Positions 23,314-32,858 of a DNA stretch of 64,000 nt are shown here, one piece after another. The notes beneath the pieces are model-generated. The model did no database searches and was not told where the DNA came from. It worked only from the letters and a program-made list of their open reading frames with translations. Position 1 is the stretch's first letter, and the number at the start of each line of letters is the position of its first letter. Both the position numbers and the translations under genes were made by a program. Origin of the DNA: Flavobacteriaceae bacterium (GTDB lineage: Bacteria > Bacteroidota > Bacteroidia > Flavobacteriales > Flavobacteriaceae); the NCBI GenBank assembly GCA_002746415.1, contig NVXD01000016.1, positions 248,001 through 312,000 on the forward strand, read 5' to 3'.

Positions 23314-23398
23314 GGAGAATTGGCAGAGTGGTCGAATGCGGCAGTCTTGAAAACTGTTGAGGGTCACACCTCCGGGGGTTCGAATCCCTCATTCTCCG
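23314..23398 (+). tRNA. tRNA-Ser (anticodon TGA)
   Basis: Acceptor arms GGAGAAT (23314-23320) and ATTCTCC (23391-23397) pair fully, with discriminator G at 23398. The anticodon loop CTTGAAA holds TGA, which reads UCN serine codons. A long variable arm (GAGGGTCACACCTC) confirms the class II serine type, and the T-arm is GGGGGTTCGAATCCCTC. CCA is not encoded. A hairpin terminator begins 9 bp downstream. Confidence 0.97.
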
Positions 23399-23407
23399 CA
23401 AAAGGAA

Positions 23408-23437
23408 ATCCACAACGTAAGTTGTGGGTTTTTTATT
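23408..23437 (+). terminator. Terminator after tRNA-Ser
   Basis: ATCCACAAC (23408-23416) pairs with GTTGTGGGT (23421-23429) around GTAA, with one wobble pair, followed by TTTTTATTTTT. The stem sequence resembles the palindrome at 23932-23969. Confidence 0.8.
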
Positions 23438-23733
23438 TTTATGAACAAATGCAAATTATTTCAACTTTGAAATAGAAATAATAAACAAATCCGTTTAAAA
23501 CCTTGCCTAGGCGAGCCATGATTAGTGACATCATCACTATCTCAACCTAGTGTTTTTTCAAAATCACCTTAAACTCAAGATATAAAAGCTATTGATCAAA
23601 ATTGCTTTGGACAAGGATAATTACAATTTGTCCTACAAAAACAACAATTGGGACATTACAATTTCCACTCCTAGACAAATCGTAACATCTTTGTACTATA
23701 ATTAAATAATAAACAACATTAAAATATAATAAT

Positions 23734-23847: not shown

Positions 23848-23931
23848 TCATTTTTTACAACAATCACTAAGCAGCGTAGCTAATTAATTGTCAAGACTAA
23901 ACAAATTAATGGATAGTTATCAATTCTCCAC

Positions 23932-23969
23932 AAAAAGAAACCCACAACCTAGGTTGTGGGTTTCTTTTT
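23932..23969. terminator. 38-bp perfect palindrome, bidirectional terminator
   Basis: From 23932 to 23969 the DNA is a perfect palindrome centred between 23950 and 23951. Its left core is GAAACCCACAACCT, flanked by AAAAA and TTTTT. It can stop the plus-strand 23734 transcript and the minus-strand gene ending at 24010. Confidence 0.75.
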
Positions 23970-24009
23970 CGTATAACTCTATTGGATTAAGTTACTAAAT
24001 CAGTTCTAA

Positions 24010-24849: not shown

Positions 24850-25065
24850 TTAATCATATAAAAGAGCACCGTTGAGTCGTTTCGTAGCATCATCTGGGTG
24901 TTTTGCAATACAATCGCCTAGACAAGTTAGCTCTATATCGGTATAAATAAGGTTAGTAGGAGCTGCTAACTTAGGTTTTACAAACCAACCGACTACCGTT
25001 CCTATTAAAAAGACCACCAACAATTTAACATAAAACCCTCTAATGTGTTTTGAAGTAGTTTCCAT
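24850..25065 (-). CDS. Small single-pass membrane protein, unknown
   Basis: The 71-residue protein has one transmembrane helix, YVKLLVVFLIGTVVGWFV, after a short basic N-terminus. The rest, about 40 residues with LTCLGDCIAKHPDD, faces the periplasm. The two cysteines three residues apart could form a disulfide or bind metal. The upstream DNA holds one TTCCC half-site like those of the LytTR elements (minus strand, about 25114-25118). It is probably cotranscribed with the Cys-rich lipoprotein. No family recognised. Confidence 0.5.
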   Translation of the reverse strand: METTSKHIRGFYVKLLVVFLIGTVVGWFVKPKLAAPTNLIYTDIELTCLGDCIAKHPDDATKRLNGALLYD

Positions 25066-25429: not shown

Positions 25430-26602
25430 TTACAAATTTAGCCACTGCTTAAACTCGGCTGCTTTATTTTTGCTGATGATAATATCTACCTCTGAGTTTG
25501 GGTTGACTAGAATTTTAAGCTGATTGTTGCCATATTTTACAATTTTATCAATACCAGATATAGCAATAATAAACTGTCTGTTAGCCCTATAGAAAAAGGC
25601 ACTGTCGAGATTAGAATACAACTCATCCAAGCTTACATTCGTCGTTGAACGTTTGCCATCAAAACATACCACATAAGTAATGGTATGCTCCATATAAATA
25701 TGGGCTATATCTTCAGTAGCTATGGGTAACAACTCATTCCTAACATACGTAAGAATTCTTTTTTTATTTTTCTCTTTTTGTTTATCCTTAGGCTGTTCCG
25801 GTAGATTTTCACTAACTTTTTGCTGATAGTCGCCCACCGCAGCATTTAGCTTAGAAAGATTGATGACCTCATCCTCAAGTTTTTGGTTCTTCAGTTCTAA
25901 CCTTTTTTCATAGGCACTACCAATAAGCCTTACCGTAATCACAGAAGCCAGAATAATGATAAAGCCCATAATGAGTAAAATGTTATAGAACTTATTCTTA
26001 AGGGCATCTATCTGCTCTAAAATTTTATTGGTGTTGGCATGGGCCGCAATGATCCAATCAGAATTGGCTACTGGATACAAATAAATCACTTCTGACTCTT
26101 GCTCAGAATTCTCAAAATTTCGCACCCCCCCAGCTTCTTCCTTGTTCTTTAGCAAGATATAAAAGTCATTTGAGTTTAAATCATCTGTAACAGAAGACAC
26201 AAATGACTGATTAGGACTAACCAACTGCCCTACTCTTTTTATATCTGGGTGACATACTTCTCTCCCAGACCAATCAAAAACAGATACAAAACCCGTATTA
26301 AGATTGGTGCTTTCAATACTCCTTTGCACATTATGAATCACGGTTTCCTTAGGGATTCCATTTTCTAATTGAAAGCCCATTAAAAAAGCAATTTCCTTTG
26401 CTTCTCGCTTACTGGATTCTAATTGGGTTTCCAATAACTGATTGGCACTTGCTTTTACAAAAAACTGTATAGCGATACTGGCAATCACAATAAATATGAC
26501 AGATATGGATAGAAAAGTAAAAAAATAAAGTCGGTCTTTCCTCAAAGCAATGGTATAAAATAATTTTTTAGAAAGCCTAATATAAGTAATTGATTCAAAC
26601 AA
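25430..26602 (-). CDS. Membrane-bound Cache-LytTR transcriptional regulator
   Basis: This 390-residue one-component regulator joins a periplasmic sensor to a DNA-binding domain. Residues 25-49 form a first membrane helix. About 50-200 is a Cache-like sensor (VFDWSGREVCHPDIKRVG and YLYPVANSDWIIAAH). About 207-228 is a second helix, about 230-265 a coiled coil (LELKNQKLEDEVINLSKLNAA), and 285-390 a LytTR domain (HIYMEHTITYVVCFDGKRS, FYRANRQFIIAI, EVDIIISKNKAAEFKQWL). No kinase or receiver domain is present. The start is a TTG at 26602; no ATG is near. It is divergent from the haem c gene at 26763, whose upstream region holds LytTR-like direct repeats. It likely activates both downstream cassettes on sensing a periplasmic ligand. 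Confidence 0.85.
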   Translation of the reverse strand: MFESITYIRLSKKLFYTIALRKDRLYFFTFLSISVIFIVIASIAIQFFVKASANQLLETQLESSKREAKEIAFLMGFQLENGIPKETVIHNVQRSIESTNLNTGFVSVFDWSGREVCHPDIKRVGQLVSPNQSFVSSVTDDLNSNDFYILLKNKEEAGGVRNFENSEQESEVIYLYPVANSDWIIAAHANTNKILEQIDALKNKFYNILLIMGFIIILASVITVRLIGSAYEKRLELKNQKLEDEVINLSKLNAAVGDYQQKVSENLPEQPKDKQKEKNKKRILTYVRNELLPIATEDIAHIYMEHTITYVVCFDGKRSTTNVSLDELYSNLDSAFFYRANRQFIIAISGIDKIVKYGNNQLKILVNPNSEVDIIISKNKAAEFKQWLNL

Positions 26603-26654: not shown

Positions 26655-26706
26655 AATTCCCTTTTAAAGCCAAATATTCCCTCTCACCAACATTTAGTCT
26701 TTATAA
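26655..26706 (+). promoter_or_regulatory. LytTR-type activator site before cassette 1
   Basis: A 52-bp element carries TTCCC at 26657 and 26677, 20 bp apart, followed by GTCTTTATAA at 26697. It matches the element at 29516-29567 in 45 of 52 positions. A -7-like TTGCTTTG lies at 26722-26729, exactly 25 bp after GTC as in the second copy. No TTG stands at the -33 position, as expected for an activator-dependent promoter. Confidence 0.75.
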
Positions 26707-26762
26707 ACCTTTGTAAAATAGTTGCTTTGGTAATAATTAATAAACACATCAAATTTAAAATT

Positions 26763-27134
26763 ATGAAAACGAAAATTAAATTTTTATGTACTGTGTTGGC
26801 TCTTGTTTTGGTTGCTTGCTCCTCTGATAGTGAAGATGATCTTATTCCAGACGATTCAAACAACGGGCAAGGCACCAATGCTGTTTCCTATGACGGAAAC
26901 ATTAAAGCAGCTATTAATGGCAACTGTTTAGGATGTCATTCCAATCCACCAAGAAACGGAGCCCCATTTTCCTTAGCCACTTTTAATGATGTAAAATCAA
27001 GGGCTGATGGAATACTGGCTGCTATAAAAAAGCAAACCAGCGAAAACGGAGCCATGCCACCATCTGGTAGATTACCACAAGCTACGATAGATTTAGTAGA
27101 ACAATGGATTACTGAAGGACATAAAGAAAACTAA
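26763..27134 (+). CDS. Haem c lipoprotein
   Basis: The start at 26763 gives a lipoprotein signal with lipobox LVLVAC (Cys19) and an acidic tether SDSEDDLIPDDSNN. One haem c motif, CLGCH at 55-59, and a candidate axial Met98 in GAMPPSG follow. The total of 123 residues fits a single-haem domain of the type found in cytochrome c lipoproteins of Bacteroidetes. It should face the periplasm and carry electrons. Haem would be attached by the CcsBA system encoded at 43657. It is first in the cassette controlled by the site 26655-26706. Confidence 0.85.
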   Translation: MKTKIKFLCTVLALVLVACSSDSEDDLIPDDSNNGQGTNAVSYDGNIKAAINGNCLGCHSNPPRNGAPFSLATFNDVKSRADGILAAIKKQTSENGAMPPSGRLPQATIDLVEQWITEGHKEN

Positions 27135-27144
27135 AAGAAAAAAA

Positions 27145-27708
27145 ATGAACACTAACAAATTATATTATATGCAGATAGTCTTTGTTGTTTTTCTAAACAT
27201 GGCTGTTGGTCATGCGCAAGAAAAGTACCTAGACAAAAACGGGGATATCACTTTTGAAGCATCAGAGAAATTGTTTGAGGAGGTGAAGGCTACTAACCAA
27301 CAGGTAACAGCTATTATAAATATTAAAACGGGTGAAATAGCCGCATTGGCTTTAATGAAGGGATTTCGTTTTAAAAATTCTTTAATGGAGGAACACTTCA
27401 ATGAAAATTACATGGAATCTGAGTCGTATCCAAAAGCCGTTTTTAAGGGTACAATCATAGATTTTGATTTTTCTAGCCTAACAGAAGTAGCACAAACCTT
27501 TACAACAAAAGGAACACTAGCCTTACATGGAAAAGAAAAGGAAGTTACGACCATTTTGCTTATCCAAAAGGAAAGCAATAGCATTTCTATTACTGGAGAC
27601 TTTAAAGTGACACCTGAGGATTTTGCAATTGAAATTCCCAAAATTGTAAAAAACAAGATTGCCAAGGAGGTTGTTGTGCATATAGCATTTAATATGACGG
27701 TAAAATGA
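27145..27708 (+). CDS. YceI family periplasmic protein (cassette 1)
   Basis: The 187-residue protein has a signal peptide ending in AVGHAQ and a lipocalin-like YceI domain. FRFKNSLMEEHFNENYMESESYPKAVFKG is the core pattern (seen in parts), with GTLALHGKEKEV following. YceI folds bind isoprenoid chains such as polyprenyl quinones. It overlaps the next gene by 4 bp (ATGA). Its paralogue at 31406 shares MxEHFNExYxE, YPKAxFxGxIIDFD and LHGxxK. The function could be to present a quinone or isoprenoid ligand to the redox proteins of the cassette. Confidence 0.88.
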   Translation: MNTNKLYYMQIVFVVFLNMAVGHAQEKYLDKNGDITFEASEKLFEEVKATNQQVTAIINIKTGEIAALALMKGFRFKNSLMEEHFNENYMESESYPKAVFKGTIIDFDFSSLTEVAQTFTTKGTLALHGKEKEVTTILLIQKESNSISITGDFKVTPEDFAIEIPKIVKNKIAKEVVVHIAFNMTVK

Positions 27709-28106
27709 ACTGGAAAAAACACACCTTATTAATTGCTATCATAGCCATGATCTTTTTAATAGCGCTCTATGCAAAGCAATACCTGTATGGGGCACATCGC
27801 GATATAGCCTCAGAGGAAGCTACCTTGGAATTATCCGCACAAGCACTTGCAACAGAGTTCATTACTAATCAAGAAGAAGCTTCAAAAACCTTCTTGGATA
27901 AGGTAATTACTGTTTACGGAAAAAAAACAGCACAAGAATCTATGAGTATTGTGTTAGCTGACCAAGTGCAGGCCAACCTCTTAAATGACCATCCAATAGA
28001 TTTTTCTATGGGTGAGGTCCTCTATTTAAAAGGAAGGATAATCGGATATGATGAACTCCTAGAAATGGTAAAAATTGATCAGGCCACACAAATAATTAAA
28101 AAATAA
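27705..28106 (+). CDS. Membrane-anchored OB-fold-like protein (cassette 1)
   Basis: This 133-residue protein has one N-terminal membrane helix (LLIAIIAMIFLIALYA) and a periplasmic part. That part resembles the tRNA_anti-like OB folds of Bacteroidetes: ALATEFITNQEEASKTFLDKVITVYGK, then a strand ending VLYLKGRIIGYDELLEM. It translates from an ATG overlapping the YceI stop by 4 bp. A paralogue is at 30973. OB folds of this kind have no known periplasmic role; metal or oligosaccharide binding is a guess. Confidence 0.65.
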   Translation: MNWKKHTLLIAIIAMIFLIALYAKQYLYGAHRDIASEEATLELSAQALATEFITNQEEASKTFLDKVITVYGKKTAQESMSIVLADQVQANLLNDHPIDFSMGEVLYLKGRIIGYDELLEMVKIDQATQIIKK

Positions 28107-28120
28107 CAAAACCTCCTAAC

Positions 28121-28966
28121 ATGAAATACATACACATACTTTTCTTTCTACTACCTTTCACTCTATTTTCTCAAGAAGATTTGTTTTCCGAAATTGATAC
28201 CACCGCAGCGGGTGGTTTTGAAACGGCAGCATTTAAAGGCTTAAAAATTGTAAACTTCGAGTCCACTAAAATGGTCTCTCAAAAAGAGCTATACTTTGTA
28301 GTTTCACACAGATTTGGTTCTGTAAAAACAGGATTTAAAGATTTTTTTGGCCTAGATCAGGCGGTTACCCGACTTAATTTTATTTACGGGATATCGGATG
28401 GCGTAAATATTGGTTTTTCTAGAAGCTCCTTTTTAAAAATCTATGAGACTTCTCTTAAACTGCGTTTATTAAGACAAAAAAAAGAAGGCGCTCCTGTTAC
28501 AATCGTGCTTTTTAATAGCTTACTAATAAATACAGCTTTAGACAAAGTAAACCTCCCTGATTTGGAATTTAGAAACCGATTGGGATATACCTCACAATTA
28601 CTCATTTCCTCCAAAATCAACAAAAATTTATCATTAGAAATCATTCCAACATTTTTTCACGATAACCTAGTACAAATAGTTAATCAAGAAAACTCCCAAT
28701 ATGTTTTGGGTATTGGTGGACGCCACAAACTTTCTAAAAGGTGGTCCTTTAATGCTGACTATGGATTTCACCTAAACAGAGTAAGTACTTCTCCTTTTAA
28801 AAACCCTTTATCTATTGGTTTTGATCTGGAAACAGGCGGACATGTGTTTCAATTGCACTTTACCAATGCACAGCCAATGAACACCAACGGTTATCTTGGT
28901 CAGGCTATTGGTGATTGGGGAAAGGGAGATTTTTTCTTTGGATTTAACCTATCACGTATCTTTTAA
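28121..28966 (+). CDS. DUF5777-type outer membrane beta-barrel protein (cassette 1)
   Basis: The 281-residue protein has a signal peptide (IHILFFLLPFTLFSQ) and alternating strands typical of an outer membrane barrel, ending in Phe (FGFNLSRIF) as BAM substrates do. Conserved pieces are FKGLKIVNFESTKM, SHRFGSV, GISDGVNIGFSRSS and GIGGRHKLSKRWS. I assign DUF5777 by resemblance. It probably provides an outer membrane pore or anchor for the redox proteins encoded with it. Its paralogue is at 31944. Confidence 0.78.
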   Translation: MKYIHILFFLLPFTLFSQEDLFSEIDTTAAGGFETAAFKGLKIVNFESTKMVSQKELYFVVSHRFGSVKTGFKDFFGLDQAVTRLNFIYGISDGVNIGFSRSSFLKIYETSLKLRLLRQKKEGAPVTIVLFNSLLINTALDKVNLPDLEFRNRLGYTSQLLISSKINKNLSLEIIPTFFHDNLVQIVNQENSQYVLGIGGRHKLSKRWSFNADYGFHLNRVSTSPFKNPLSIGFDLETGGHVFQLHFTNAQPMNTNGYLGQAIGDWGKGDFFFGFNLSRIF

Positions 28967-28976
28967 AAATAGCATT

Positions 28977-29231
28977 ATGAAATCTGGATTTGCAACCGTA
29001 CACGTAAAAAATACCTTTTGCAGAAAATGTGCAACAGTTATCAAAAAAGAGCTTCTAAACATTATGGATATTACTAATGTCTATATGTATCCTATGGATT
29101 CGTTGGTTGTTTTTAACTTTGTAAAAGCAAATGAACTTTCAACAGCACTCAATCTGCTAACAGACCTTGGGTACCCCCCAAAAGAGGATCTCATAAAAAA
29201 AATTAGGCCTACGTCCCTGTGTAATTGTTAA
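28977..29231 (+). CDS. HMA-like small metal-binding protein
   Basis: The ATG 28977 gives an 84-residue protein. It resembles a heavy-metal-associated domain: ATVHVKNTFCRKCATVIKKEL carries CxxC in a slightly altered loop (FCRKC rather than GMxCxxC), and LLTDLGYPP is the usual second half. The C-terminus ends SLCNC, adding two more cysteines. It has no signal peptide, so it should be cytoplasmic and could carry copper or another soft metal. It is the last gene of cassette 1, followed by a terminator at 29267. The ORF extends upstream, but that overlaps the barrel gene. Confidence 0.65.
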   Translation: MKSGFATVHVKNTFCRKCATVIKKELLNIMDITNVYMYPMDSLVVFNFVKANELSTALNLLTDLGYPPKEDLIKKIRPTSLCNC

Positions 29232-29266
29232 TGCATTTTATGTGCTCTCATCAATACCTTATTCCA

Positions 29267-29298
29267 AACCTTTCAATTAAGCATTGAAGGGTTTTTTT
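29267..29298 (+). terminator. Terminator of cassette 1
   Basis: AACCTTTCAAT (29267-29277) pairs with ATTGAAGGGTT (29283-29293) with one wobble pair, followed by TTTTT. Confidence 0.75.
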
Positions 29299-29515
29299 AG
29301 CTTCAATTTTTACGCTCCGTATGCAAAGAGACAAACTTGACTATCGGACATTTTTTATTTGTCAATAACCCAATTTCAATTTTCAATAATACCTAGTCAG
29401 TTCCATTTCTAAATTTCTCCATTCACCAATAATAAAATATCTAAAAACTTTCACTGTTGTAGATAGCAAACCAATAATAACATAAACCAAATAGCCCAAA
29501 AATCTCGCTTTAATT

Positions 29516-29567
29516 AATTCCCTTTTAAAGCCCATTATTCCCTTTCGCATACATTTTGTCTTTATAA
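29516..29567 (+). promoter_or_regulatory. LytTR-type activator site before cassette 2
   Basis: Second copy of the 52-bp element: TTCCC at 29518 and 29538, GTCTTTATAA from 29558, and TTGTTTTG at 29583-29590. All spacings equal those at 26655-26706. The remaining stretch from 29299 to 29515 shows nothing else that I can name. Confidence 0.75.
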
Positions 29568-29628
29568 GTGTCTAATATGAAGTTGTTTTGGGGCAACATT
29601 AATAGTAAACCTATAAAATAAAAACACC

Positions 29629-30837
29629 ATGAAAAGATTATTATTCCTATTTGTATTATCCATTCTAATTGTAAGTTGTTCAAGCTCTGATGATGATGAT
29701 GATGAAAACAATGGCCCCAACTCTGAAACAGAAACAGAAACAGTTGTTGAAAATGCTGTTAGGTTACAAACCAACAGTACTTTTGGAAACATCTTAAGCG
29801 ATGCCAAGGGCAAAACATTGTATTTCTTTGGCAAGGATGCCAAAGGCACTTCTAACTGCAGTGGAGGTTGTGCAGATGTATGGCCAATATTCTTTGTTAA
29901 TGATTTAACTTTAGATGCAGGTTTAGAAGCATCAAATTTTGGAACTATTACCAGAGCAGATGGAGCCAAACAAAATACTTATAAAGGATGGCCTTTATAT
30001 CTTTTTGCAACTGACGTCGCTGCTGGAGAAGTAAAGGGAGACAATTCCAACAATTTCTTTGTAGCCAAACCTGATTACTCCTTAATGGTAACGGTAGCTC
30101 AATTGGTAGGCAAGGACTCTGGAGGAACAGAAACCAACCTTACAGCTGATTATACTCCAGGTGATGAAGAAACTCTTTACGTAACAGATCCAGAAGGAAA
30201 CACTTTATACATTTTCATCAATGACAAAAAAGATCAAAATAATTTTACTGCAGAAGATTTTTCAAACGATGGTGCGTGGCCAATTTTTAATGCTAGCATT
30301 GATAAGCTTCCGAGTATCCTAAATTCTATTGATTTTGGAACCATAGATGTATTTGGACAAACCCAACTAACCTATAAAGGATGGCCGTTGTATTATTTTG
30401 GTCAGGATCAAGCACGAGGCGACAATTTTGGAGTTGGTTTCCCAATTGCAGGAATTTGGCCCATCATTAACCCTGATACTGAAGAAGCTCCAGAATCAGA
30501 AAATCCTGTAGTGACAACTACCACCTATGAAGTAGGCAACAGCGGAGCTAGTGCTTATATCTTTACTGGTGATGGGTTAAGCAATGCCAATAACCCTGAC
30601 TTTACTTTCAAAAGAGGACAAACCTATGAGTTTAATGTTAACACTCCTGGACACCCATTTTTAATAAATTCAGTACAAGGTACTGGAACAGCTAACGTCT
30701 ATAATGATGGCGTTACTAATAATGGTGCCTCAACGGGAACCATAAGTTTTACAGTGCCTAATGACGCTCCAAACACCTTGTTTTATAACTGCGAGTTTCA
30801 TGGTTCTATGACAGGAACTATTACGATAATTGATTGA
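29629..30837 (+). CDS. Lipoprotein with two Lipoprotein_15 repeats and a C-terminal cupredoxin
   Basis: The 402-residue protein has a lipobox (LIVSCSSS) and an acidic tether DDDDDENN. Residues about 45-145 and 170-285 are two 'secreted repeat' (Lipoprotein_15, PF03640) units. The first has KGKTLYFFGKDAKGTSNCSGGCADVWP; the second has lost the Cys pair. Both carry YKGWPLYxF. The last 110 residues are a cupredoxin, with a likely copper site formed by GHPFLIN and FYNCEFHGSM (His, Cys, His, Met). It is first in cassette 2, behind the site 29516-29567, and parallels the haem c gene of cassette 1. It should sit on the envelope surface and transfer electrons or bind copper. Confidence 0.82.
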   Translation: MKRLLFLFVLSILIVSCSSSDDDDDENNGPNSETETETVVENAVRLQTNSTFGNILSDAKGKTLYFFGKDAKGTSNCSGGCADVWPIFFVNDLTLDAGLEASNFGTITRADGAKQNTYKGWPLYLFATDVAAGEVKGDNSNNFFVAKPDYSLMVTVAQLVGKDSGGTETNLTADYTPGDEETLYVTDPEGNTLYIFINDKKDQNNFTAEDFSNDGAWPIFNASIDKLPSILNSIDFGTIDVFGQTQLTYKGWPLYYFGQDQARGDNFGVGFPIAGIWPIINPDTEEAPESENPVVTTTTYEVGNSGASAYIFTGDGLSNANNPDFTFKRGQTYEFNVNTPGHPFLINSVQGTGTANVYNDGVTNNGASTGTISFTVPNDAPNTLFYNCEFHGSMTGTITIID

Positions 30838-30972: not shown

Positions 30973-31413
30973 ATGAAGTCTAATTCTATAAAACTAATTG
31001 CTATCACAACCTTAGTAGTACTTAGTGCATTTAGTTACTGGTACTTGTCTCGTGATGCTTATATGAATATATTTGAGAAAGAAACTGAAATTTATACGAA
31101 TGCAGAAAAATTAATTTCTTCCTTTGTTTCGAATCAAGATTTGGCAAATGTCACTTTTGTAGAAAAAATAGTGGAAGTCCAGGGAATCGTAAAAGAAGTT
31201 TCCTACCTCAATGATAGGTGCACCATCTTTTTAGAAGCAGGAAAACATGAAACAAAGAACAGTATTATTTGTGATATGCAAACCAACCAACTACACAGTA
31301 TTCATAATCTTAAATCAGGAGATTCCGTTCTAATAAAAGGTCTTTTCAAAGGATTTCTTATGGATGGCATTATGCTAAATTGTGCATTACTCAAAAAAAA
31401 TATTAATGAATAA
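30973..31413 (+). CDS. Membrane-anchored OB-fold-like protein (cassette 2)
   Basis: The 146-residue paralogue of the protein at 27705. It has an N-terminal membrane helix (LIAITTLVVLSAFSYWYL) and then AEKLISSFVSNQDLANVTFVEKIVEVQGIV, and a strand LKSGDSVLIKGLFKGFL matching the other copy. Three cysteines occur in the periplasmic part (DRCTIFL, IICDMQ, LNCALL). The gene order differs from cassette 1: here the OB-like gene precedes yceI. It overlaps the next start by 8 bp. Confidence 0.65.
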   Translation: MKSNSIKLIAITTLVVLSAFSYWYLSRDAYMNIFEKETEIYTNAEKLISSFVSNQDLANVTFVEKIVEVQGIVKEVSYLNDRCTIFLEAGKHETKNSIICDMQTNQLHSIHNLKSGDSVLIKGLFKGFLMDGIMLNCALLKKNINE

Positions 31414-31954
31414 ACTACTAATATTTCTTCTTGTTTTTTCATTTTTTAATGGAACGGGACAAAATCAAGAAAAGATCATTGCCAGGCAAGGACAGGTTTC
31501 TTTTTTCTCCTATACTTCTGTTGAAAATATTAAAGCAAAAAACAATCAAGCCTTAAGTATTATTGATTTTTCCAATAATAAAATAGCAGCAAGTATGTTA
31601 ATGAATGTCTTTGTTTTTGAAAAAACACTCATGCGTGAACATTTTAATGAAAGTTATATTGAGACTGACATCTACCCTAAGGCCACCTTTGAAGGTGAAA
31701 TAATTGATTTTGATAAGTCCTTTAATGGTAAACAAACCAAAATGATTAATGGCATTTTTAGTTTACATGGGGTTAGCAAGCCCATAGAAATAAAAACAGA
31801 AATTGATAATACCAACGGAAATTATATTCTCACGGCTACTTTTGAAACGTTCGTAAAAGACTATGATATTAAAATACCTCCTCTTTTGGCAGGAAATATA
31901 GCCAAAACCATATCGGTAACCTTTAGATTTGAATACGAGCCTTATGAAAAATAG
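31406..31954 (+). CDS. YceI family periplasmic protein (cassette 2)
   Basis: The ATG 31406 lies within the end of the OB-like gene and gives a 182-residue protein with signal peptide MNKLLIFLLVFSFFNGTGQ. The YceI domain contains MREHFNESYIETDIYPKA and GIFSLHGVSKPIEI. It is a paralogue of the 27145 protein, with recognisable but moderate similarity, so the duplication is old. It overlaps the barrel gene start at 31944 by 11 bp. Confidence 0.86.
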   Translation: MNKLLIFLLVFSFFNGTGQNQEKIIARQGQVSFFSYTSVENIKAKNNQALSIIDFSNNKIAASMLMNVFVFEKTLMREHFNESYIETDIYPKATFEGEIIDFDKSFNGKQTKMINGIFSLHGVSKPIEIKTEIDNTNGNYILTATFETFVKDYDIKIPPLLAGNIAKTISVTFRFEYEPYEK

Positions 31955-32858
31955 AAAATTGATTTTAGCATGCTTCTTAATAGTAGGTTTATTAAGTCAA
32001 ACTAATGCTCAGGATAATTTATTAGACATTTTGGATGCGGAGCACCCGAACGAAAAAATATTTACGGCTGCCACTTTTAAGATGACTAGAATTTCCTACG
32101 GACAATCTATTGAAACTAGAAAAAAAGGTACTCTGGAAACCTATTGGTCCTACAGATTTTGGAACATTCCTAATACCAGAACCCAAAGCTTTTTTGCAGA
32201 CAAAGTGTCTGGTAGGCTAGCGTTGGAATATGGTGTTACGGACAGGTTTTCTATGGGTGTTGGATATTCTAATTATGATGATTTATTTGATGGCTTTTTA
32301 AAATACAAATTGGTAAGGCAACAGCCTAGAAATGACGGTTCACCAGTTAGTATCACTCTGTTTCAAGGGGGTAGTTACAATGGTGGTGGCAATCCTTATG
32401 CGAATAATAATGATGATTTTAACAGATTATCCTATACCAGCCAAGTCTTAATTGCACGGAAATTCAATTCCAATTTTTCCTTTCAAATTGCGCCTACAAT
32501 TATCCACAGAGGCATGACCGCATGGCCCTCTGACCCAACTAATACCTTTGCCATGGGTTTTGGTGGCAGGTTTAAAATAAATGGACATTTATCCTTTGTT
32601 TCAGAATATTATTGGGTTACCAATCCGTTAAAATCCAAAGAAACTTTTGATCCTTTTTCCCTAGGGCTTAATTGGGAAATAGGAGGGCTTATGTTTCAGT
32701 GTATGTTAACCAATACCCGTAGTTTGGTGGAGGACACCTACCTAACACAAACTCCTAATAGTTTTAATTTTAAAGCTCCAAATATAAACTTAGGGCTAAC
32801 TGCAATTTATATTTGGCATTTAAAAAAGAAAAAACATCCACCACAGAATAAGCTGTGA
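31944..32858 (+). CDS. DUF5777-type outer membrane beta-barrel protein (cassette 2)
   Basis: Starting at ATG 31944, the 304-residue protein has a signal peptide ending in SQTNAQ. It shares with the 28121 protein the layout of a lead sequence (DILDAEHPNEKIFTAATFKMTRI), GVTDRFSMGVGYSNYDD, LSYTSQVLIARKFNSNFS, GFGGRFKINGHLSF and a terminal strand ending IYIWHLKKKK. The basic tail after the last strand is unusual for a barrel that should end in an aromatic residue. It is the last gene of cassette 2. Confidence 0.76.
   Translation: MKNRKLILACFLIVGLLSQTNAQDNLLDILDAEHPNEKIFTAATFKMTRISYGQSIETRKKGTLETYWSYRFWNIPNTRTQSFFADKVSGRLALEYGVTDRFSMGVGYSNYDDLFDGFLKYKLVRQQPRNDGSPVSITLFQGGSYNGGGNPYANNNDDFNRLSYTSQVLIARKFNSNFSFQIAPTIIHRGMTAWPSDPTNTFAMGFGGRFKINGHLSFVSEYYWVTNPLKSKETFDPFSLGLNWEIGGLMFQCMLTNTRSLVEDTYLTQTPNSFNFKAPNINLGLTAIYIWHLKKKKHPPQNKL

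Follow-up and report, generated by a model that had tools for sequence, protein, structure and literature searches.

What connects two nearly identical DNA elements, each lying in front of a cassette of genes, to the regulator gene next to them? The question is raised by a 64,000-nucleotide stretch from a Flavobacteriaceae bacterium (contig NVXD01000016.1, positions 248,001 to 312,000; hereafter the window), in which a 52-bp element precedes each of two gene cassettes and a gene for a LytTR-type regulator is divergent from the first of them. A first, sequence-only reading had taken the elements for targets of this regulator, and the conservation of the element, its orientation, and its co-occurrence with the regulator support that assignment at the level of comparative sequence analysis. 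We consider it likely (probability about 0.85) that the regulator is a one-component activator which acts on both promoters from a position of about -77 to -47 and switches on both cassettes.

According to this model, the membrane-anchored Cache-LytTR protein encoded at 25430-26545 would bind both elements, each of which would be an activator site composed of two direct half-sites, TTCCCTTTYA. Given that they are spaced 20 bp start to start, the half-sites should face roughly the same side of the helix. The site would be situated upstream of a weak promoter, in which the -7 box is off-consensus (TTnnTTTG) and a TTG is missing from the usual -33 spacing. A signal sensed by the periplasmic Cache domain may place two LytTR domains side by side on the repeats, and this pair could recruit RNA polymerase, turning on both cassettes together.

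Results

Two copies of one element

The stretches 26655-26706 and 29516-29567 agree at 45 of 52 positions without a gap, which reproduces the earlier count, and their likeness reaches beyond the 52 bp (71 nt at 79%). The pattern TTCCCTTTTAAAGCCNATTATTCCC, with up to three mismatches allowed, matches twice in the window compared to a mean of 0.00 in 100 shuffles, and the twin elements are therefore more than a product of chance. Among the other pairs of 52-mers between 20 and 36 kb of the window, the next best agree at 43 positions (23391/23923) and then at 36. A search of the complete 3.8-Mb assembly, which had been suggested along with the assignment, returned just the two window sites when a looser pattern was used with three mismatches. 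A model of 65 aligned sites (65 of the 67 listed) gave them E-values of 1.4e-16 and 4.1e-16, the next match being at 0.007; neither search of this assembly found a third site of comparable strength.

By alignment, the core of the element is the direct repeat TTCCCTTTYA-N10-TTCCCTYTCR. The TTCCC pairs noticed previously are indeed spaced by 20 bp (starts 26657/26677 and 29518/29538), but the half-site is longer than this unit and comprises about 10-11 nt (TTCCCTTTYA) in stacked sites. A gapless stack of 26 distinct seed sites (26 of 29, identical ones removed) displays the half-sites TTCCCTTTYAA and TTCCCTTTCRC together with a -7 box, which is found at one distance and with T at bases 1, 5, and 6 in 26/26. 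The box is retained at that distance in 112 of 129 matches of a wider set, and 45 of the 65 aligned sites read TTnnTTTG there. Across loci L004-L102, some of which repeat one genome, TTCCC pairs are 20 bp apart in 37 cases and 21 bp apart in 10; any other spacing between 6 and 79 accounts for 0-7 cases. The distance from the first TTCCC to the ATG is 95-125 bp in 75/126.

Downstream of the repeats, TTGCTTTG and TTGTTTTG begin 25 bp past the starts of GTCTTTATAA, exactly where the sequence-only reading had placed a TTGnTTTG box. GTCTTTATAA also has the reported position, 20 bp on from the second TTCCC (26697/29558); its role as a third tandem half-site at +40 was rejected, as it is weakly conserved. 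A third half-site-like stretch does occur about 20 bp further upstream in some homologues (L025, L031, L032, L033, L042). The statement that both promoters lack a TTG at -33 holds for the usual spacing, but at site 2 a TTG lies 24 nt ahead of the -7 box (TTTTGT, compared to TTTAGT at site 1), and 14 of the 65 aligned sites carry a TTG 17-23 nt before the box. In a relative, the usual sigma-A box is TAnnTTTG at -12 to -5 (PMC9723704). Positioned from the -7 box on this scale, transcription would start near 26734 and 29595, with the distal half-site at about -77 to -67 and the proximal one at about -57 to -47.

A membrane-anchored LytTR protein

The regulator is laid out as an N-terminal membrane helix, a single-Cache-like periplasmic domain, a second membrane helix, a long helix, and a C-terminal LytTR domain. 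While the divergent LytTR gene had been recognized correctly, its start is most likely TTG 26545, which matches the M[RK]KDKLY at the start of homologues, and not 26602; the frame upstream of this TTG stays open as far as 26602. M1 is conserved to at least 90% in an alignment of regulator homologues (A2; reference list, 59 of the best 80 relatives, with 7/59 omitted for a stop codon). Scoring 50.4 bits in Pfam against a cut-off of 22.6, the protein belongs to the LytTR family, whereas Cache_3-Cache_2 (20.6 bits) stays under its cut-off of 27.7. With hydrophobic stretches (residues 8-26 and 190-208) and the LytTR domain (263-370) on a single polypeptide, the protein has the make-up expected of a transmembrane transcription regulator, a membrane helix joined to a DNA-binding domain. 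A receiver domain was not found by Pfam, which returned just LytTR and the sub-threshold Cache match.

The AlphaFold model of the regulator has a mean pLDDT (predicted local distance difference test) of 79.8 and a pTM (predicted template modelling score) of 0.49. Its LytTR domain resembles 3d6w (Foldseek, TM 0.88 by target length) and the AgrA-DNA structure 3bs1 (0.72), and the sensor part weakly resembles Cache-type chemoreceptor domains (E 0.02 and above). A PDB sequence search with the LytTR domain yielded just two designed proteins at weak E-values. Where the FhRhHRS motif is named for the LytTR family (PMC4227749), the protein reads FYRANRQ, with N in the place of H and Q in that of S; F318, R320, and A321-Q324 are invariant across the 53 sequences of A2. 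LytTR is also listed among the outputs in a survey of Cache domains (PMC4822843).

Conservation at regulator loci and upstream of cassettes

Conservation before orthologous cassettes had been named as one of the points on which the assignment could fail, and the element is conserved both there and beside the regulator. We scanned named genomes, keeping the best 80 of 172 regulator relatives, and found a cassette gene in the fetched DNA of 67/80 loci. A matrix of four sites (the two of the window and two from the close relative Saonia flava, L023) was applied to those loci with at least 300 bp upstream (76/80; 75 without L023). At a score of at least 15, it matched 59/75 divergent regions on the strand facing away from the regulator, compared to 0/75 on the opposite strand, 0/75 in shuffled sequences, and 21/3990 pieces elsewhere. 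The corresponding numbers at a score of at least 8 were 72/75, 0/75, 4/75, and 113/3990, and the motif thus faced the regulator gene, as autoregulation through it would require, in 0/75 regions, other repeats not having been sought. The strongest 17 of the 21 matches elsewhere lie 69-210 bp before an open reading frame (ORF) of the regulon type: 15 have a cassette gene downstream (at L026, 2.6 kb on and behind a lamin-tail gene) and two a Reeler or copper-binding protein; the weakest four (15.1-16.2) do not precede such an ORF. In a wider scan, 15/100 loci had no match above 21, but several of these either carry a weaker site where one would be expected or offer only a short upstream region. 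A leave-one-locus-out matrix (control maximum 21.0) was set aside in favour of the four-site matrix, given that repeated loci leak (L004=L023, L006=L028, L007=L030).

Site and regulator also occur together across genomes. The regulator (E<=1e-20) is present in 17 of 149 Flavobacteriaceae genomes, and the 65-site model has 25 matches at E<=1e-5 in 14 genomes, all of them regulator carriers. Such sites were detected in 14/17 genomes with the regulator, a fraction to be read with the partial circularity discussed below, compared to 0/132 without it (Fisher 4e-17; best match among the 132, 3.3e-5). Two of the three remaining carriers (G032, G037) have a weak match beside the regulator, and G010 has none beside it. 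DUF5777, encoded in both cassettes, occurs in 71/149 genomes including 17/17 with the regulator, and among DUF5777 genomes the site is found in 14/17 with and 0/54 without the regulator. Likewise, a site of score 15 precedes 86/100 cassettes in regulator loci and 0/20 in genomes lacking the regulator (one cassette each from 20 of the 54); two of these 20 reach score 10 and one reaches 12. The opposite strand of the positive cassette regions gives 35/100 at score 15, and these would be sites of second, divergent cassettes that fall within the 4.8 kb. In a set covering the order, which partly overlaps the family set, the regulator occurs in 9/246 genomes, and matches at E<=1e-5 are confined to four of these nine (G000, G218, G343, G348), with 0/237 among the others; the remaining carriers are G032, with its weak match beside the regulator, and four genomes with distant or partial matches. 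The regulator loci of G218 and G343 (L094, L085) are part of the model, the distal sites of G218 and G348 are not.

Which protein binds, and does it activate?

The residue before the invariant K359 is S in most regulators and G in some, and the half-sites vary alongside. In G-type rows, the first half-site is TTCAC (7) or TTCCG (6) in 13/13, whereas TTCAC appears in 0 and TTCCG in 3 of 73 S-type rows. These counts leave out one G-type row (L040) and six S-type rows without a site of score 8; six loci had no motif match, and L018 and L021 are one genome. Flagellimonas onchidii carries two paralogous regulators, one S-type and one G-type, each beside its own type of site (L056, TTCAC/TTCCG; L061, TTCCT/TTCCC). 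Since the change from S to G arose twice, the covariation is only suggestive of a specificity signal.

These data bear on the alternative that another LytTR protein or direct-repeat binder of the same genome occupies the element and that the neighbouring regulator is uninvolved. With 21 LytTR domain matches in the genome, the regulator's own included, there are 20 further candidates, yet the element tracks the regulator across the 149 genomes, lies upstream of it in 59/75 loci, and has half-site variants that follow regulator variants even between the Flagellimonas paralogues. We consider a different binder unlikely. Marginally less probable still is that the regulator binds the element and represses, or represses without the signal. 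Regulator and cassette share an upstream region, in which the start of the site is 112 bp from the regulator's start codon, and the site could affect the regulator's own promoter; AgrA can repress at one promoter, its site being downstream of that promoter (PMC4227749). At the cassettes, however, a constant distance separates the site from the -7 box downstream of it, without overlap, the promoters are off-consensus, and described LytTR sites of such a layout serve activation (PMC4227749, PMC6193735). That the repeat is a recent promoter duplication without regulatory meaning is very improbable: the cassettes are partly alike (YceI, tRNA_anti-like, DUF5777), and promoter and genes may have duplicated together, but conservation across the family covers the half-sites and leaves out much of their flanks, and no score-15 element precedes the same cassette in the 20 genomes without the regulator.

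Several observations weigh against activation of both cassettes by the neighbouring regulator. Another LytTR protein among the 20 is a possible binder, 16/75 divergent regions fall short of score 15, and just 4/9 regulator genomes of the order set have a strong site. G010 has a weak match only (E 0.010), separated from the regulator by at least about 2.5 kb, and no site was seen in G164 upon inspection by eye. Two distal matches (L201 539-615, E ~7e-7; L202 545-621, ~4e-7) precede a gene unlike those of the cassettes or no clear gene, and could be chance matches or unknown targets. Just two independent changes underlie the S/G covariation, counted with all rows lacking an assigned odd half-site scored as ordinary. 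The genome searches scored 31 first-look candidates per genome under strict filters, and the 14/17 is partly circular, given that most model sites were taken from the genomes scored or from others of their species; only the 0/132 and the distal sites escape this circularity.

Distal sites and extent of the proposed regulon

For 125 sites, a cassette gene follows within 3.5 kb downstream in 91, none in 27, and 7 offer too little room. A good part of the sites without a recognized cassette gene precede other lipoprotein or heme genes, and Pfam analysis of eight such examples returned Haem_bd+Cytochrome_P460, lamin-tail, CHRD, Reeler, TonB, and copper-binding proteins, which would point to a redox theme in the envelope. 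In G018, a site on a contig other than the regulator's lies before genes for a heme lipoprotein, YceI, tRNA_anti-like, and DUF5777 proteins. One distal site of G218, outside the model, precedes a heme-YceI-OB-DUF5777 cassette, and so does a weaker one in G348 (E 2.6e-4). G301, a member of another family, has a TTCGCTTTCA/TTCCCTTTCA pair 21 bp apart before a gene for a CxxCH protein, as judged by eye. Sub-threshold matches in G026 (2.4e-5), G024 (3.3e-5), and G239 (1.6e-5), the latter two without the regulator, were not accompanied by a cassette.

Other candidate targets were seen as well. Ten loci (L080, L082, L084, L087, L091, L093, L095, L096, L099, L102), mostly Flavobacterium where listed by title, have the element before a gene whose product contains CYDCHSN (assigned by Pfam, on L080 only, to Haem_bd and Cytochrome P460) and not before a YceI cassette. 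Strong distal sites (E ~2e-10) at L244 562-638 and L246 545-618 precede a TonB-like gene in two congeneric genomes; this gene follows one distal site each in G218 and G348 (Pfam on L244 only). The distal match of L201 stands before an acyl-CoA dehydrogenase-like gene.

Discussion

LytTR sites have been described as two repeats of 9-11 nt, 'almost all' with spacers of 11-13 nt (PMC4847170). TTCCCTTTYA, occurring twice, agrees with the repeat length, whereas the period of mostly 20 bp leaves a spacer of about 9-10 nt, outside the published range. Given the wording 'almost all', the 20-bp period (21 bp in part of the homologues) is a variant spacing. The sites of AgrA and YpdB share with the present one the LytTR fold of the binder, here a predicted one, and two direct repeats of about 10 nt, with the promoter-proximal repeats of AgrA centred near -60 (PMC4227749). 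Unlike in AgrA and YpdB, no receiver domain was found in the regulator described here, and the site differs in sequence (TTCCCTTTYA).

A second parallel is provided by the LytTR regulatory systems (LRS), such as HdrRM and BrsRM, whose direct repeats also lie a fixed short distance upstream of the promoter, about 10 bp before the -35 box, and control their own operon (PMC6193735). The LytTR proteins of LRS-like operons in Bacteroides have transmembrane segments (PMC6193735), as does the regulator here. In contrast to LRS, which use a separate membrane inhibitor and repeats preceding their own operon, the sensor is here fused to a regulator with its own hydrophobic stretches, and the site faces away from the regulator gene. 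Membrane helices and a DNA-binding domain are likewise united in one protein in transmembrane transcription regulators, among them the Caulobacter LytTR protein HigX (PMC10269533, PMC13384398). HigX differs in that it is predicted to have four helices, apparently lacks a periplasmic domain, and has an inverted repeat as its motif, compared to two helices, a Cache-like domain, and a direct repeat in the present case.

We found no description of this regulon in the open-licence papers searched, and among them no paper on LytTR with YceI or on transmembrane one-component LytTR proteins in Bacteroidetes, and none on DUF5777. We tentatively propose, at less than even odds, a family-wide and so far undescribed regulon, in which a membrane-bound Cache-LytTR one-component activator would act through a 20-bp tandem site on interchangeable envelope redox modules, perhaps an outer-surface electron-transfer or a metal/redox-stress system. 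These modules would include c-type and P460-type heme proteins, cupredoxins, YceI, DUF5777 outer-membrane barrels, and surface lipoproteins.

The membrane-anchored Cache-LytTR regulators of Flavobacteriaceae thereby gain a concrete candidate DNA site and candidate target genes. Conserved cassettes of DUF5777, YceI, tRNA_anti-like, heme, and copper lipoprotein genes, for whose joint role we found no description, are tied together. With the site, members of the regulon can be listed for any genome, and fused to a reporter it can help in seeking the signal.

Features of the locus

The two cassettes have YceI, tRNA_anti-like, and DUF5777 genes in common. At its C-terminus, the product of 29629-30837 carries plastocyanin-like copper ligands (GHPF...NCEFHGSM).

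Table 1. Positions of the twin elements, promoter parts, regulator gene, and cassette genes in the window.
Feature	Position	Strand	Remark
Regulator gene, 371 aa	25430-26545	-	Likely TTG start at 26545; divergent from cassette 1
Element 1	26655-26706	+	52 bp, in front of cassette 1
Site 1 distal half-site TTCCCTTTTAA	26657-26667	+	Probably about -77 to -67
Site 1 proximal half-site TTCCCTCTCAC	26677-26687	+	Probably about -57 to -47
GTCTTTATAA of promoter 1	26697-26706	+	Over the -33 position; common to both window sites, weakly conserved elsewhere
-7 box TTGCTTTG	26722-26729	+	Off-consensus, TT where TA is expected
Cassette 1, lipoprotein-like, one CLGCH heme motif	26763-27134	+	Cytochrome_CBB3 match below cut-off
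Cassette 1, YceI-like protein	27145-27708	+	
Cassette 1, tRNA_anti-like protein	27705-28106	+	
Cassette 1, DUF5777 membrane beta-barrel	28121-28966	+	
Cassette 1, small HMA (heavy-metal-associated) protein	28977-29231	+	
Element 2	29516-29567	+	52 bp, in front of cassette 2
Site 2 distal half-site TTCCCTTTTAA	29518-29528	+	
Site 2 proximal half-site TTCCCTTTCGC	29538-29548	+	
GTCTTTATAA of promoter 2	29558-29567	+	Over the -33 position
-7 box TTGTTTTG	29583-29590	+	
Cassette 2, lipoprotein-like, Lipoprotein_15 repeats	29629-30837	+	C-terminal plastocyanin-like stretch H...C..H...M, read by eye
Cassette 2, tRNA_anti-like protein	30973-31413	+	
Cassette 2, YceI-like protein	31406-31954	+	
Cassette 2, DUF5777 beta-barrel	31944-32858	+	

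On the regulator strand, downstream of the regulator gene, a single small membrane-like ORF (71 aa, with one hydrophobic stretch) is located 364 bp away at 24850-25065, where a separate membrane inhibitor as in LRS might be sought; a search of 99 regulator loci returned no relative of it, bar a chance match of 12 residues. The second-best pair of 52-mers (23391-23442 and 23923-23974, 43/52) consists of a hairpin just after a tRNA-Ser gene (23314-23399) and a similar hairpin 530 bp on, which look ordinary and are likely terminators.

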